64,000 nucleotides of DNA from Subtercola lobariae. GTDB lineage: Bacteria; Actinomycetota; Actinomycetes; Actinomycetales; Microbacteriaceae. Shown here one piece after another: positions 9,017 to 14,815 of the stretch. The position numbers and the translations under genes were made by a program. Under the pieces are notes generated by a model. It saw only the letters and a program-made list of their open reading frames with translations, made no database searches and was not told where the DNA came from. Location: positions 310,001-374,000 of the forward strand of contig NZ_BMGP01000006.1 in NCBI RefSeq assembly GCF_014640255.1, written 5' to 3'. How positions within the stretch are numbered: the stretch's first letter is position 1; every line of letters starts with the position of its first letter.

Positions 9017-11833
9017 GTGACCACTTCACTCGAACGCTCGAGCGTCGAGGGTGAGCCGCACTACCGGGCCTCGGTAGACGGTATTCTTCGCTTCGAGCAG
9101 CTTCAGCCGACCCTACGAACGCGCCTTGGGGGCGGTGGTGAGGGCGACGGCGACGGCTTGAGCGCTGGTATCACCGTTGTCGGTACTGCGAGGCCGCGGT
9201 TGTCGTGGCGGTATGCCTCCGCTGAACCCGGGTGGCGCCAACGCGGGGTCGAGCTCGAACTCACTCGGGCTGATGGGTTTCGCACGGGCATCCATCTCGC
9301 CGGAGACGAACAGGCTCTGGTGGCGTGGCCGTTCGGGCCGTTGACCTCGCGTGAGCGAGTAGCGGTGCGGATGCGCGCGTGCGCCGAGGTTGCTGGTGAG
9401 GCGAGCGACGCGACTGGCGCTACGGCTGGTCACGCCCACGGCGGCAGCAAGGCGGTCGCGGTGGCTGACTCGGCGTGGAGCGCACCCGCCTACGTCGAGG
9501 CCGCCCTGCTCGAACCGGGCGACTGGAGCGCACAGTGGATCACCCCGGCGACCGGCGGCGGCATCTTTGACCCCGCGCCCGTACTCGGCACCCGGTTCGA
9601 CGTCAGCGACGGGCTCGTGGATGCCCGGCTGCGCATCACCGCCCTCGGAATCTTCGAGGCGCGCATCAACGGTGCGCTCGTGAGCGAAGACCACTTCGCT
9701 CCCGGCTGGTCGTCGTACGACCACCGATTGCGTTACCAGAACTACGACGTGACCGCACTGCTGCAGCCCGGCGAGAACGACCTCGAGGCGCTGCTGGGCA
9801 ACGGATGGTATCGCGGCAGAATCGCTTCGTTCAGCTTGCACCGCGGGCATCCGTACGGCGAGAAGCTGGCGTTGCTGGCGCAACTCGAGCTCACGTTCGC
9901 CGATGGGCGGCGCGAGACCATCGGCAGCGACGGCGGTTGGAGCGCCGGTGGCTCGCGGGTGCTGGCCAATGACTTCTACGACGGGCAGACCACCGACCTG
10001 CACCTGCCCGTGCGCCCCGCGCGTGACGGAGCAGTCACGGTTGTGCCGTCGCCCGGGGTCGAACTGGTTGCGCCGGTTGCGCCTGCGGTGCGCGAAACGC
10101 AGACGGTGCCAGCGGTTTCGACCACTCTGACCGCGAGCGGGCGGCTGCTCGTCGACTTCGGGCAGAACGTGGTGGGCTGGGTGCGGTTGCGTGTGCGCGG
10201 GGAGGCCGGCCAGCGCGTCAGCGTTCGCCACGCGGAGGTGCTCGAGAACGGCGAGCTGTCGCTTCGGCCGTTGCGGTCGGCGAAGGTGACCGACACGTAC
10301 ATTCTGGCGGGAACCGGCGATGCCGGCGCCGCTTGGGATGCCGCTGGCGGTGTGGCTGGTGTGGCTGGTGCGGCTGGTGCCGCCGGCGTGGCGAGCGTGG
10401 CTGCCGAACTCGGCGAGCTTCTCGAGCCGAACCTCGTGTTTCATGGTTTTCGCTACATCGACATCGACGGCCTGAATGCCGCGGAGGATCCCGCCACCGA
10501 ACTGCTCAGCGTCGAAGCCGTCGTGCTCGGCAGCGACCTCGAACGCACCGGCTGGTTCGAGACCTCGAGTGTCGAGCTCAACCAACTCCACCAGAACGTG
10601 GTGTGGGGCATGCGAGGCAACTTTCTCGACGTGCCCACCGACTGCCCGCAGCGCGACGAACGACTCGGCTGGACGGGCGACATTCAAGTATTCGCCCCCA
10701 CCGCGACCAGCCTTTTCGACGTCTCCGGTTTTCTGAGCTCATGGCTCGCCGACCTCGCCGCCGACCAGCTGCCCGATGGCACCGTGCCCGCCGTGATTCC
10801 GCGCGTCTTTCTCGAAGAGAAGCCGCTTGCGGGCTGGGGTGACGCAGCGGTCATCGTTCCGTGGGCGCTGTATGAGGCGTACGGCGACCGCGCCATTCTC
10901 GAACGCCAGTACCCGAGCATGACTCGGTGGCACGACCGCGTGACCGCCGACACCACCGACAATCTCTGGCTGGGTGGTGACCAGTTGGGTGACTGGCTCG
11001 ATCCACTCGCGCCGCCAGATGCGCCCGCCAAAGCACAAGCCGACCCTGATGTTGTGGCGAGCGCGTACTACGCGAGATCGATAGACCTGTTGGCCCGAGT
11101 GGCTGCGGTGCTTGGCCGACACGATGAGGCCGAGCGGTACGAGCGCTTGGCCACGGGCATCCGTGCCGCCTTCAATAGAGAGTTCGTGTCGCCTGAAGGC
11201 ATCGTGCGAAGCGACTGCCAGACCGTCTATGCGCTCGCCATTCGGTGGCGACTCATCACCGACGCAGACGTGCTGGCGCTCGCCGGTCAGCGGCTTCGTG
11301 AACTCGTCGACGAGCGAAACTTCACCGTGGCCACGGGTTTCTTGGGCACTCCGGTGATTCTCGATGCGCTGCTCGACGCCGGCCAGCTCGACGCGGCATA
11401 TGCGATGGTGCTCGGGCACGAGCATCCGTCGTGGCTGTATTCGGTCGACCTCGGCGCTACCACCGTGTGGGAGCGATGGGACAGCCTGCTGCCCGACGGC
11501 TCGGTGAACCCGGGCGAAATGACGTCGTTCAACCACTACGCGTTCGGTGCGGTGGCCGACTGGATGCACAGGGTGATCGGCGGGCTCACCCCCACGTCAC
11601 CCGGCTATCGTGACGTAAGCATCGCGCCGCGCCTCGGCGGCGACCTCACCTCAGCGAGCATCTCGCACCTCTCGCCCTTCGGGCTGATCGCGGCCGACTG
11701 GTGCCTCAACGGCGGCGTCTTCGCCCTCGCGCTCACCGTGCCGGTGGGCGTCACCGCGGCCGTGACTCTGCCCTCGGGCGAGCACCACCGCGTCACCCAC
11801 GGCGAGCACGTCTTCACCTGCGACGTGCCCTAG
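9017..11833 (+). CDS. Alpha-L-rhamnosidase, GH78 (first copy)
   Basis: 938 residues from GTG 9017, no signal peptide, so it is intracellular and acts on imported substrate. The N-terminal beta-domains (Bac_rhamnosid_N: GDWSAQWITPA...) lead into the (alpha/alpha)6 catalytic domain with DCPQRDERLGWTGD. Glu548 in DERLGW is the expected general acid and Glu819 in VWERWDSL the expected base of inverting GH78 enzymes. A Gly/Ala/Val repeat (VAGVAGAAGAAGVA, about residues 440-460) interrupts the beta-domain and looks like a lineage-specific insertion. It is the last gene of the transport operon. It releases L-rhamnose from the non-reducing end of glycans or glycosides. Confidence 0.92.
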   Translation: MTTSLERSSVEGEPHYRASVDGILRFEQLQPTLRTRLGGGGEGDGDGLSAGITVVGTARPRLSWRYASAEPGWRQRGVELELTRADGFRTGIHLAGDEQALVAWPFGPLTSRERVAVRMRACAEVAGEASDATGATAGHAHGGSKAVAVADSAWSAPAYVEAALLEPGDWSAQWITPATGGGIFDPAPVLGTRFDVSDGLVDARLRITALGIFEARINGALVSEDHFAPGWSSYDHRLRYQNYDVTALLQPGENDLEALLGNGWYRGRIASFSLHRGHPYGEKLALLAQLELTFADGRRETIGSDGGWSAGGSRVLANDFYDGQTTDLHLPVRPARDGAVTVVPSPGVELVAPVAPAVRETQTVPAVSTTLTASGRLLVDFGQNVVGWVRLRVRGEAGQRVSVRHAEVLENGELSLRPLRSAKVTDTYILAGTGDAGAAWDAAGGVAGVAGAAGAAGVASVAAELGELLEPNLVFHGFRYIDIDGLNAAEDPATELLSVEAVVLGSDLERTGWFETSSVELNQLHQNVVWGMRGNFLDVPTDCPQRDERLGWTGDIQVFAPTATSLFDVSGFLSSWLADLAADQLPDGTVPAVIPRVFLEEKPLAGWGDAAVIVPWALYEAYGDRAILERQYPSMTRWHDRVTADTTDNLWLGGDQLGDWLDPLAPPDAPAKAQADPDVVASAYYARSIDLLARVAAVLGRHDEAERYERLATGIRAAFNREFVSPEGIVRSDCQTVYALAIRWRLITDADVLALAGQRLRELVDERNFTVATGFLGTPVILDALLDAGQLDAAYAMVLGHEHPSWLYSVDLGATTVWERWDSLLPDGSVNPGEMTSFNHYAFGAVADWMHRVIGGLTPTSPGYRDVSIAPRLGGDLTSASISHLSPFGLIAADWCLNGGVFALALTVPVGVTAAVTLPSGEHHRVTHGEHVFTCDVP

Positions 11834-11869
11834 CCAGCTGCACCTCCAGCGAAAGCGGAGAGCACGCCC

Positions 11870-11885
11870 CTCATCATATAATGAG
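11870..11885 (+). promoter_or_regulatory. Promoter and palindrome of the TAC cassette
   Basis: A consensus -10 box TATAAT (11877-11882) lies inside an inverted repeat CTCAT...ATGAG. Such an arrangement fits autorepression by the HTH antitoxin encoded two genes on. Transcription would start near 11889, just before the toxin ATG at 11898. No clear -35 is seen, and the role is inferred. Confidence 0.5.
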
Positions 11886-11897
11886 TAATGATCGTTG

Positions 11898-12341
11898 ATG
11901 CGATCGCAAGGCTGGCTCACGTGCCTCGCGGCGGATCATGCTGAGGGCGAGCCCTGGCCAGACGAACGGCAGCCTGATGACGTGGTGAAGCTCATGGCGA
12001 TAGTGATGAAATTTGCAGATGACGGCACACCGGCCCATAGCACCGCCGCGCAGGTGCTCGAAGACGGCGTGTGGGAGTTCAAGGTCAGTAGAAAGCGCTT
12101 CACGTTCTACGACACCGACGGAACCGGATCGTTTCAGCCAAAACATCGAATCAGGAATCGTGACGCGTCTCCACATCGTGAGGACGACTATTGGTGGTTC
12201 CCCGATTTCGACGACTCCGTTCGACTCGGCTTCGTTTTTGCTAAGACAGGCCAGACCGCAGGCCAGAACAACATTCATGAGTCGATTCGAGTGAGAAAAG
12301 AGGACTTGAGCCATGACGAAAATCCAGCCATCGAAGGCTGA
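11898..12341 (+). CDS. HigB/RelE-like toxin of a TAC module (putative)
   Basis: 147 residues from ATG 11898 (a shorter form from ATG 11994 is possible). The core DGVWEFKVSRKRFTFYDTDG and the C-terminal GFVFAKTGQTAGQNNIHESIRV follow the phage Gp49/HigB pattern (ILELR...FRVLFF, then AFYKxxQKTPKxxI). In that family the protein is a ribosome-dependent mRNA interferase. An insertion of about 25 residues (KHRIRNRD...WWFPDFDD) separates the two halves. It overlaps the antitoxin gene by 29 bp. The resemblance is by motif only. Neighbouring HTH and SecB-like genes in the order known from Mycobacterium tuberculosis Rv1955-Rv1957 strengthen the call. Confidence 0.6.
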   Translation: MRSQGWLTCLAADHAEGEPWPDERQPDDVVKLMAIVMKFADDGTPAHSTAAQVLEDGVWEFKVSRKRFTFYDTDGTGSFQPKHRIRNRDASPHREDDYWWFPDFDDSVRLGFVFAKTGQTAGQNNIHESIRVRKEDLSHDENPAIEG

Positions 12342-12900
12342 CGCGCCTGCTAGGCGGTCACGTCGTCGAGCCGCCGACGACAATCGGGTGTCTCTCTTAG
12401 ACGAGATGGAAGCCGACCCGTCGGTCGCAGTCGAATTGGCAGCAGCCTCGCTGATGAATCAATTCCATTCCTTGCTTCAGTCAGCTTTTCAGAATCGACC
12501 AGACATCAGCCAGGCCGCGTTGGCGCAGCTGCTGCACGTTTCCGCAGGCAGAGTCTCGCAGGTGCTCGGGGGTGAGGAGAATTTGAGGGTCTCCACCGTA
12601 GGTCGATACGCACGAGCGCTGGGGTATGACGTCTCCGTCTCCTTCGTTCCGCGCGAGCGAGTCGCCCCTCCGCTCAGTTCGAACCGTCGCGGTGCGGGCT
12701 CTGAATGGAATGACCTGTACGCTTCTGTCGTTTCAGATGGGCAACATCAGGCGCCACAATTCACTATTTCGCCCGCCCTCCCGGCAGCCATTCAGACGGT
12801 CGGGCCCCAGATTCATGTTGGACGAATCGATATAGACCGCACGGCGATTGCGTACGAGCTGCTTCGCCCAGAAGGCGCGCAGCGGGAGTCAATAAAGTGA
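12313..12900 (+). CDS. HigA-like HTH antitoxin with C-terminal extension
   Basis: 195 residues; ATG 12313 with AGAGGA upstream. A Cro/C1-type HTH is visible (ISQAALAQLLHVSAGRVSQVLGG, then LRVSTVGRYARALGYDVSVSF). The N-terminal 30 residues are basic and disordered. The roughly 80-residue tail after the HTH contains the aromatic stretch EWNDLYASVV. In TAC systems such a tail is the chaperone-addiction (ChAD) segment, which makes the antitoxin aggregation-prone until SecB-like protein binds. That function is inferred from gene order. It probably binds the palindrome at 11870-11885. Confidence 0.68.
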   Translation: MTKIQPSKADAPARRSRRRAADDNRVSLLDEMEADPSVAVELAAASLMNQFHSLLQSAFQNRPDISQAALAQLLHVSAGRVSQVLGGEENLRVSTVGRYARALGYDVSVSFVPRERVAPPLSSNRRGAGSEWNDLYASVVSDGQHQAPQFTISPALPAAIQTVGPQIHVGRIDIDRTAIAYELLRPEGAQRESIK

Positions 12901-13343
12901 CCGACGAACTGAGTTTTTCGATCACCGACGTGGTCGTGCTTGAAACGTACTCCCGGCGTCGAGCGAATATTCAAACCGACGGTGTTACCGCGGAGATCAA
13001 TTTCGAAGTAGTGCTCGCCACCATCGCAGTGAGTACGAATGCCCTCTATGTCGAGTCGCAGTATGTCGTCACACTTCGCGCGGAGAAGGACGCCGCTGGC
13101 GACCCTGAGCTGGCGCTCGCTCGCACAAGGGTCGGCGTGGTGATGGCTCCCAGTCGGCCCATCTCAGCCGAAGAGGTAGACGATGGGTCACTCCTTCCGT
13201 CTCAGCAACTCGCAAATCAGGCGGCCCAGCCGTATCACCGTCAATCGCTCCTGCACTTGTTCGTGCAGCTGGGTATGCCGCCCTTCATGCTTCCGGCCGA
13301 ATTCGCTGCATCCGTAAGCGATCACTCTGTGCTCAAGGCTTAG
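12897..13343 (+). CDS. SecB-like chaperone of a TAC module
   Basis: 148 residues; GTG 12897 overlaps the antitoxin stop as GTGA. Weak but ordered SecB features are seen: beta-strand pattern IQTDGVTAEINFEVVLATIAV, then YVVTLRAEKDA, then the C-terminal QPYHRQSLLHLFVQLGMPPFMLPAEF. That last part lines up with the SecB/Rv1957 helix PYxRExxxDLxxRxGxPPLxL. Solitary SecB-like genes directly behind a HigBA pair are the mark of toxin-antitoxin-chaperone systems. Its role would be to fold and protect the antitoxin. The MFS gene converges from the right, 62 bases away. Confidence 0.62.
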   Translation: MTDELSFSITDVVVLETYSRRRANIQTDGVTAEINFEVVLATIAVSTNALYVESQYVVTLRAEKDAAGDPELALARTRVGVVMAPSRPISAEEVDDGSLLPSQQLANQAAQPYHRQSLLHLFVQLGMPPFMLPAEFAASVSDHSVLKA

Positions 13344-13405
13344 GCAAAACAGACGCGGAGAAGTGCCCGGCTCTTCGGTGGAGGCGAGCCGCAGTCGGGC
13401 GCGGG

Positions 13406-14815
13406 TTAGTGGAAGGCGTGGCCGAGGGGGATGCGACGGGCGAAGTACGACGCGCACGCGGTGATGAGCGCCCCGAGGCCCAGCGCGATGGCCATTTGGC
13501 CGGCGAGAGCGGAGGGGTTCACTGCGGTGAGGCTCGTGTTGCCGCCGCCGATGGCCGCCGCCGCGATGCCGGTGATCAGCGCCAGACCCACCGACGACCC
13601 GACCTGGCCCGAGGTGGTGATCAGGCCGCCGGCAAGGCCCGCGCGGTGCGGCGGCAGCGAGCGAGTGGATGCCGCGGTCAGCACCACCACGGCCGTGCTC
13701 GCCCCCACCGCCTCGAGCACGATCAACGGAACCATCACGTAGAACGGCGGCTCGAACAGCGCCACCACGGCCAGCAGCGCGAGCGCGATCGCCGCCACCA
13801 GCGGCGCCGCAGTTCGAACGCTCTTCTCGCCGAGCCTTGTGATGACCCGCGGAACGAGCTTGCTCGTCACCGCCCCCGCCACCGCAGAGGGCAGCAGCCA
13901 CAGCGCGGTCTGCACGGGGCTCAACCCGGTTACGATCTGCGCGTACAGCGACGTGTAGAACCCCATCACCGAAAGCCCGGCGATGAGCAAGATCGCGGCT
14001 CCGTTGGTGATTCCCACCCGCTTCGTGAACACGATCGCCAGGGGCAGAATCGGATGCTCGCTGCGCCGTTCGACCAGAACGAACACTCCGAGCGCCAGCA
14101 GCGCGACCACCGCACCTGCCAGACGAATCTGAATCTCGACCGAACTCGTCACGGCGAGCGTGACGCAACTGATGCCCACCAGAAACAGAAACGAACCGGG
14201 AATGTCGAAGTGCGCGCGCCGCAAGCGCTCTTCGCTCACCTGTCGCCTGCGGCCGATGTTTCGGGTCATCAGCAGCAGAACCGGGGCGATGGCGACGTTG
14301 ATGAGCAGGGTCCAGCGCCAGTCGAGCACCTGCGTAAGCGTGCCGCCGACGAGTGCCCCGACCGTGCCGCCGACGGTGGCCGTCACCGACCAGGTGGCGA
14401 TGGCGCGTTCGCGATCGTGCCCCGGCGAAGTCGAATCGGTGAGTAGAGCGAGCCCTGCCGGGGAGAGCAGGGCCGCGCCAAAGCCCTGCATTACCCGGAA
14501 GAAGAGCAACCATCCGAACGTGGGCGAGAGCCCCGCGCCAAGGCTCGCGAGGGCGAACAGCCCCAGCCCGAACCGCAGGCAGGGCACCGCGCCGAACAGA
14601 TCGGCGATGCGCCCGCCCAGCAGCAGGCTGCCGGCGACGGCCAACGCATAGGCGTTCGCGACCCACGGCAGGCTGGCTACGGGTACGTTCAGGTCGGCCG
14701 CGAGCGACGGCAGCGCGATGGTGAGCACGGCGCCATCGAGCACAACGATCAGCTGCGTTACCGATGCCACGGCGACGGCGCGGCCCGAATGCGCCGCCGA
14801 ATGAATCGCCGTCAT
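13406..14815 (-). CDS. MFS transporter, DHA2 (14-TM) family
   Basis: 469 residues with about 14 hydrophobic segments. Motif A, GGRIADLFGAVP, follows TM2, and a long hydrophobic pair in the middle separates the two halves. The N-terminal DGAVLTIALPSLAADL...LPWVANAYAL is the DHA2 signature. These are proton-driven drug exporters as a rule. Here the gene is the last of a four-gene overlapping operon with GH78 and GH43 enzymes (its ATG overlaps the GH43 stop as ATGA), so an oligosaccharide or glycoside importer/exporter is possible. Substrate not determinable. Confidence 0.82.
   Translation of the reverse strand: MTAIHSAAHSGRAVAVASVTQLIVVLDGAVLTIALPSLAADLNVPVASLPWVANAYALAVAGSLLLGGRIADLFGAVPCLRFGLGLFALASLGAGLSPTFGWLLFFRVMQGFGAALLSPAGLALLTDSTSPGHDRERAIATWSVTATVGGTVGALVGGTLTQVLDWRWTLLINVAIAPVLLLMTRNIGRRRQVSEERLRRAHFDIPGSFLFLVGISCVTLAVTSSVEIQIRLAGAVVALLALGVFVLVERRSEHPILPLAIVFTKRVGITNGAAILLIAGLSVMGFYTSLYAQIVTGLSPVQTALWLLPSAVAGAVTSKLVPRVITRLGEKSVRTAAPLVAAIALALLAVVALFEPPFYVMVPLIVLEAVGASTAVVVLTAASTRSLPPHRAGLAGGLITTSGQVGSSVGLALITGIAAAAIGGGNTSLTAVNPSALAGQMAIALGLGALITACASYFARRIPLGHAFH

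Follow-up and report, generated by a model that had tools for sequence, protein, structure and literature searches.

The window examined here, a stretch of 64,000 nucleotides from Subtercola lobariae (contig NZ_BMGP01000006.1, positions 310,001 to 374,000), carries at 11818-13406 what is very probably a horizontally acquired toxin-antitoxin-chaperone (TAC) module of a divergent, mostly actinobacterial family, in a copy that has most likely been disarmed and persists either as a relic or as a retained antitoxin-chaperone pair. An initial annotation had read three overlapping plus-strand genes, the third of 148 residues, as a probable TAC of a distinct and divergent sequence type with the gene order of Mycobacterium tuberculosis Rv1955-Rv1956-Rv1957; the genes are as it drew them (Table 1), and its reading is borne out by their order, a HigB-type toxin family, an antitoxin with both a helix-turn-helix (HTH) domain and a tail, and a SecB-like gene 3. 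Neighbouring open reading frames (ORFs) overlap by 29 bases (genes 1 and 2) and by 4 bases (genes 2 and 3), and the same tight operon of toxin, antitoxin and SecB-like chaperone is found in 25 of 28 relatives. What does not stand is the completeness of the module: gene 1 lacks about 48 N-terminal residues. Compared with its relatives at the level of sequence, the window TAC is a 5'-truncated copy, and it is probably disarmed, because the start of the toxin and the operator are missing while the antitoxin and the chaperone are whole.

Table 1. Coordinates of the module and its parts (positions in the window)
Feature	Position	Strand	Remarks
Inserted segment with module	11818..13406	.	Not present in G008, a genome of the same genus, where 22 bp stand instead
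121-bp stretch where relatives carry the operator and toxin N-terminus	11834..11954	.	No match to the toxin N-termini of 16 relatives, no second copy within the genome, no operator
Palindrome CTCAT-N6-ATGAG around TATAAT (11877-11882)	11870..11885	.	5-bp arms, common by chance
Gene 1, HigB-type toxin ORF, N-terminally truncated	11895..12341	+	148 aa; homology to relatives from 11955
Family-specific toxin insert, 38 residues between RxxF and RLG motifs	12108..12221	+	From the toxin alignment
Gene 2, HTH (HigA-type) antitoxin with basic N-terminal extension	12313..12900	+	195 aa
Antitoxin C-terminal tail, 90 residues, candidate chaperone-addiction (ChAD) region	12628..12897	+	Putative function
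Gene 3, SecB-like chaperone	12897..13343	+	148 aa; assigned from sequence profiles
C-terminal motif PYHRQ...LGMPPFMLP of gene 3	13230..13295	+	Most conserved part of the family in the alignment

When family profiles built without the window row were run on 1,074 six-frame segments of the window, each of the three genes was the top segment (E 4.3e-48, 9.6e-33 and 1.8e-14 for genes 1, 2 and 3); with the row of the closest relative, L035, removed as well, the values were 1.1e-45, 7.1e-30 and 2.6e-10, and the best among 500 shuffles per protein were 0.45, 0.044 and 0.21. Two further window segments, which presumably belong to other HTH genes, reached 8e-4 with the gene 2 profile. The PADLOC matches on the module were all weak.

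The 28 relatives, counted after removing repeats of one genome, come from several searches. Gene 1 found two clear relatives among 396 genomes of the phylum, G516 (E 1.7e-27) and G507 (1.4e-22); 22 genomes matched at E up to 0.1, and the window and the two matches below 1e-20 were retained and the other 19 (0.007-0.1) dropped. Profiles built from these recovered the family in seven of 396 genomes searched within the order and in six of 394 within the class, the window's own being in both, and 20 loci came from the genome contig collection, with hosts that include Mycobacterium/Mycolicibacterium, Asanoa, Micromonospora, Paractinoplanes, Nocardioides, Microbacterium, Curtobacterium, Sinomonas, Isoptericola, Ornithinimicrobium, Mycetocola, a metagenome-assembled genome (MAG) of Actinomycetes and one labelled Planctomycetaceae (L035). 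We infer that G507 is Microbacterium suaedae, of the same family as the window's host, because loci L004 and L043 agree both in their genes and in their position on the contig. Viral contigs yielded the contig of one relative, and two further viral-contig scans none. Searched singly, gene 1 found nothing in plasmids, gene 2 found no relative in the genome contig collection and only HTH-region matches in plasmids, and gene 3 found only itself in 199 related genomes and nothing in plasmids or phages; the toxins of intact relatives had no match in phage and plasmid records. Two weak matches of gene 1 in Microbacterium phages (E 0.01 and 0.5) were taken for chance, since the conserved C-terminal half is missing from the phage protein in the alignment.

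The HigB/Gp49-like character first ascribed to gene 1 is supported, for the family, by the predicted structure of an intact relative's toxin, which adopts a RelE/HigB fold; the absence of such a match had been named as grounds for abandoning the proposal. Among the toxins, 10 of the 18 aligned match Pfam PF05973 (Gp49) at E up to 1 (best 6.1e-6) and the window protein does not; nine of the 18 match a PHROGs family of unknown function (best 3.7e-4), and PADLOC gave a single weak match. (The alignment holds 18 rows; L034, L046, L024, L065, L029, L039, L020, L021, L023, L064 and L066 are outside it.) The insert of about 25 residues described for the window toxin is real. Each of the 18 aligned toxins has 33-40 residues separating two conserved motifs, where HigB 6af3 has about 8, and the insert is thus not peculiar to this copy.

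It is at the N-terminus that the window copy departs from its family. The toxin is unbroken in one frame in 24 of the 28 relatives, and all 24 have the N-terminus; in the other four (L034, L046, L024 and L065, the last also lacking a third gene) it is split across two frames, with the antitoxin in one frame. Window gene 1 covers only positions 43-171 of the 172 of the toxin model, its homology to L035 begins at window position 11955, equal to L035 residue 49, and the first 48 toxin residues of 16 relatives find no match in any frame of window 11700-11954. The absent part corresponds in the predicted model to strands 4-7 and 12-15 and helix 25-35, so the window toxin, alone in this respect, would not have the complete fold with its N-terminal strand and first helix.

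The operator is missing from the same place. In relatives, the palindrome TTTANNNTTNNCTAAA sits at the toxin start or overlaps it, even where the antitoxins diverge. Of the 23 relatives scanned out of 28 (L023, L024 and L064-L066 being outside the scan), and with a pattern chosen after reading the toxin starts, 15 match all 11 fixed positions, three match 10, one 9, two 8, one 7 and one 5, so that 18 of the 23 carry it with at most one mismatch; its arms are longer in L031 (14 bp) and L034 (17 bp). The best match in the window reaches 6 of 11 positions, equal to shuffles (p 0.77). The TATAAT box within a palindrome that the initial annotation placed before gene 1 is present, with an arm and gap size equal to those of the relatives' operator and different letters; because the window's best operator match is at shuffle level, it is not the family operator, and a promoter and terminator scan of the module found no -35/-10 pair and nothing above chance.

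That the module arrived recently, as first suggested, is supported by an empty site and by base composition. Of 11 other genomes of the genus, one (G008) shows both flanks together; its flanking genes are 82% and 85% identical to those of the window, and it lacks the segment. The guanine-cytosine content of the three module genes is 56-60%, against 68-69% in the flanking genes. The claim that the insertion broke up a sugar locus holds only in that one neighbour is an alpha-L-rhamnosidase (6gsz, 5.3e-185): the module lies between two convergent genes, the other of which reads like a major facilitator superfamily transporter, and no gene is split. No convincing repeats were found at the ends of the insertion. 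In the toxin tree (23 of 25 rows; L064 and L066, whose toxin frames are whole, are outside it) the window groups with L035 (91/87, short of what the tool counts as a firm branch) and apart from the Microbacteriaceae rows.

Gene 2 has a Cro/C1-type HTH 3' of the toxin, as in HigA-type pairs, and the clear HTH claimed for it is real, if just under Pfam's cut-off (HTH_31, E 2.7e-5). Searched against the Protein Data Bank (PDB), a nine-member antitoxin profile came closest to HigA2 7ewc (E 5.8e-6); further matches were to HTH proteins of LacI and other types. The long basic N-terminus ascribed to this antitoxin is present and shared with L035, hence not peculiar to the window copy, and the tail, estimated at about 80 residues, proved somewhat longer (Table 1). 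Across 28 rows (the window and 27 relatives, L065 being outside), the 26 antitoxins that have a SecB-like partner carry tails of 51-125 residues; the tail is 89 residues long in L043, which has a DUF6941 protein beside it, and 32 in L047. This last locus (L047:5992-7749) consists of a toxin and an antitoxin without a third gene, and its tail is the shortest of the 28. In the chaperone-addiction model, as set out in PMC5105189 and PMC6377645, the tail of the antitoxin is tied to chaperone dependence; a short tail without a third gene is what that model would predict, and a single case proves nothing. A candidate common ChAD core, a post hoc motif found in six of the 28 tails (shuffle mean 0.17, maximum 3) and absent from the window's, was left unused.

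By its family profiles, gene 3 is SecB-like, as the initial annotation had it. The only PDB match (E up to 10) of a 19-row profile was 5mtw, the TAC chaperone Rv1957 (E 1.6e-6, profile positions 9-129 of 150), and a 15-row profile without the mycobacterial rows again placed Rv1957 first (5.8e-8), with Haemophilus influenzae SecB second (0.22) and then, surely by chance, an actin-binding protein (0.58). Canonical SecB models scarcely register the family: Pfam PF02556 matched one of 19 third-gene proteins (E 0.069), not the window's, and nothing in a search of the window's genome, and the NCBIfam model matched one of 19 (0.019). TAC chaperones outside PF02556 have already been reported in PMC4257090. 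Seven of the 25 SecB-like third genes among relatives were found by a profile to which they had not contributed (E 1.7e-44 to 0.0013); the strongest match was L034, whose proteins closely resemble those of profile member L032.

The third position varies in other ways. In the mycobacterial branch (L028-L032 and L034) the third gene encodes 328-335 amino acids, the SecB-like part running on into about 170 additional C-terminal residues, and another conserved ORF comes after some of these genes (140 amino acids in L029). At one locus a DUF6941 protein (L043:7010-7408, identical with L004:2399-2797; Pfam 4e-10) takes the place of the SecB-like gene directly 3' of the antitoxin; DUF6941 as a regular substitute for SecB was rejected, a toxin or antitoxin of this family appearing in none of 30 DUF6941 loci (35 places listed, 30 with loci).

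Several observations weigh against a truncated TAC of this family. Searched singly against Pfam, NCBIfam and PDB sequences (E up to 10), genes 1 and 3 found nothing; the alignment of the toxin to HigB 6af3 consists of two individually weak stretches (i-Evalue 0.11 and 46); and a SecB-like third gene is missing in three of the 28 relatives (L043, L047 and L065). The operator is poorly matched in the closest relative, L035 (8 of 11 positions, p 0.12), as it is in L047 (7 of 11) and L042 (5 of 11). Finally, the alignment shows that gene 1 retains the family-invariant residues outside the lost part; because these are kept, any decay of gene 1 would be recent.

A toxin that is dead beside genes 2 and 3 kept as a working antitoxin-chaperone pair, which would neutralise related HigB toxins (anti-addiction), would account for two whole genes next to a truncated one, and we regard it as unlikely. 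Consistent with it, 5 of the 29 loci, counting the window, have a broken toxin frame and none a broken antitoxin HTH region (draft assemblies may add false breaks); L035 sits on a phage-like contig, and loci with antitoxin and chaperone only ("AC") are mentioned in PMC4257090. Recent decay, however, gives the same picture, since the toxin must go first. Similarly doubtful is the proposition that the window copy is no relic but a naturally disarmed TAC of phage origin, serving anti-addiction or counter-defence by neutralising HigB-type toxins that related modules bring in.

The module could also be whole and working, with a shorter gene 1 N-terminus and expression driven from the TATAAT at 11877, which we hold to be quite improbable. 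In its favour, gene 1 outside the lost part shows 53% identity with L035 across 142 columns and has its invariant residues in place, and the TATAAT lies just upstream in a palindrome of the family operator's geometry. Against it, no unbroken relative lacks the N-terminus, which supplies two strands and helix 1 of the model; for most of the solved RelE/HigB chains listed, the alignment begins near model residue 10; and the window has neither operator nor promoter pair. An ordinary HigBA pair next to an unrelated third gene is very improbable: gene 3 alone has no database match, its family is very divergent (mean column identity 29%) and one relative has DUF6941 in third place, but the SecB-like gene recurs in nearly all relatives, seven of them (one, L034, close to a member) outside the finding profile, and Rv1957 is the only or best PDB match.

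For the intact members of the family, we would propose the following scheme, whose computed basis is the gene order, the fold of the intact toxin, the kinship in sequence between gene 3 and Rv1957, the antitoxin tails, the operator and the insertion. The toxin, with the fold of the ribosome-dependent, mRNA-cleaving HigB toxins, would act on the same target as in known TACs; the HTH antitoxin would block it and, by analogy with those systems, probably repress the operon at TTTANNNTTNNCTAAA by the toxin start; the SecB-like protein would bind the C-terminal tail of the antitoxin and keep it folded, with the dependence of known TACs; and a chaperone drawn away, for instance by a phage structural protein, would leave the toxin free, if trigger and defence role are likewise as in known TACs.

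Relatives often have phage or defence genes nearby. The 8.8-kb contig of L035 is probably an actinobacteriophage-like phage contig and its Planctomycetaceae label probably wrong, because it carries a minor tail protein as well as a helicase that shares 61% identity with its counterpart in Mycobacterium phage Squirty and 60% with the helicases of Gordonia phages. Among ten neighbours in nine loci, hand-picked and scanned without a control set as in all these neighbour scans, Pfam identified phage or defence proteins in five loci (L029, SIR2-like and ResIII helicase; L042, integrase; L044, capsid; L045, HsdR; L035, minor tail protein), a GAF/HTH_8 protein in L036 and nothing in L037, L038 and L041; PHROGs gave three matches on ten proteins of six loci, a helicase (L035), a major head protein (L020) and a repressor (L026). 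By analogy with described systems, phage defence would be the likeliest role of intact family members.

Two of those systems are anti-phage TACs. HigBAC of E. coli, with a Gp49-type HigB and a SecB-like chaperone, is reported in PMC11980606 to be triggered by a phage tail protein; it resembles the present family by description and in that relatives of the window copy lie near phage or defence genes, and differs in that the window copy is truncated. CmdTAC has the same architecture with its SecB-like chaperone as sensor and is reported to be triggered by a phage capsid protein (PMC11618068), but CmdT is an ADP-ribosyltransferase, in contrast to the HigB fold of this toxin family. To the M. tuberculosis TAC, HigB1-HigA1-SecB-TA, identity is low (11% for the toxin), and the family differs from it in the inserted toxin stretch and its own operator, as does the window copy in its truncation. 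A literature search found no published description of the family, of which there may be an earlier mention.

The module marks out a TAC family whose chaperone is barely detected by Pfam and NCBIfam, with a shared operator, very variable antitoxin tails and several members near phage or defence genes. Its natural exceptions (a short tail without a third gene, DUF6941 in third place, a broken toxin beside a whole antitoxin) form a series that bears on the gain and loss of chaperone dependence and on possible phage sensing.
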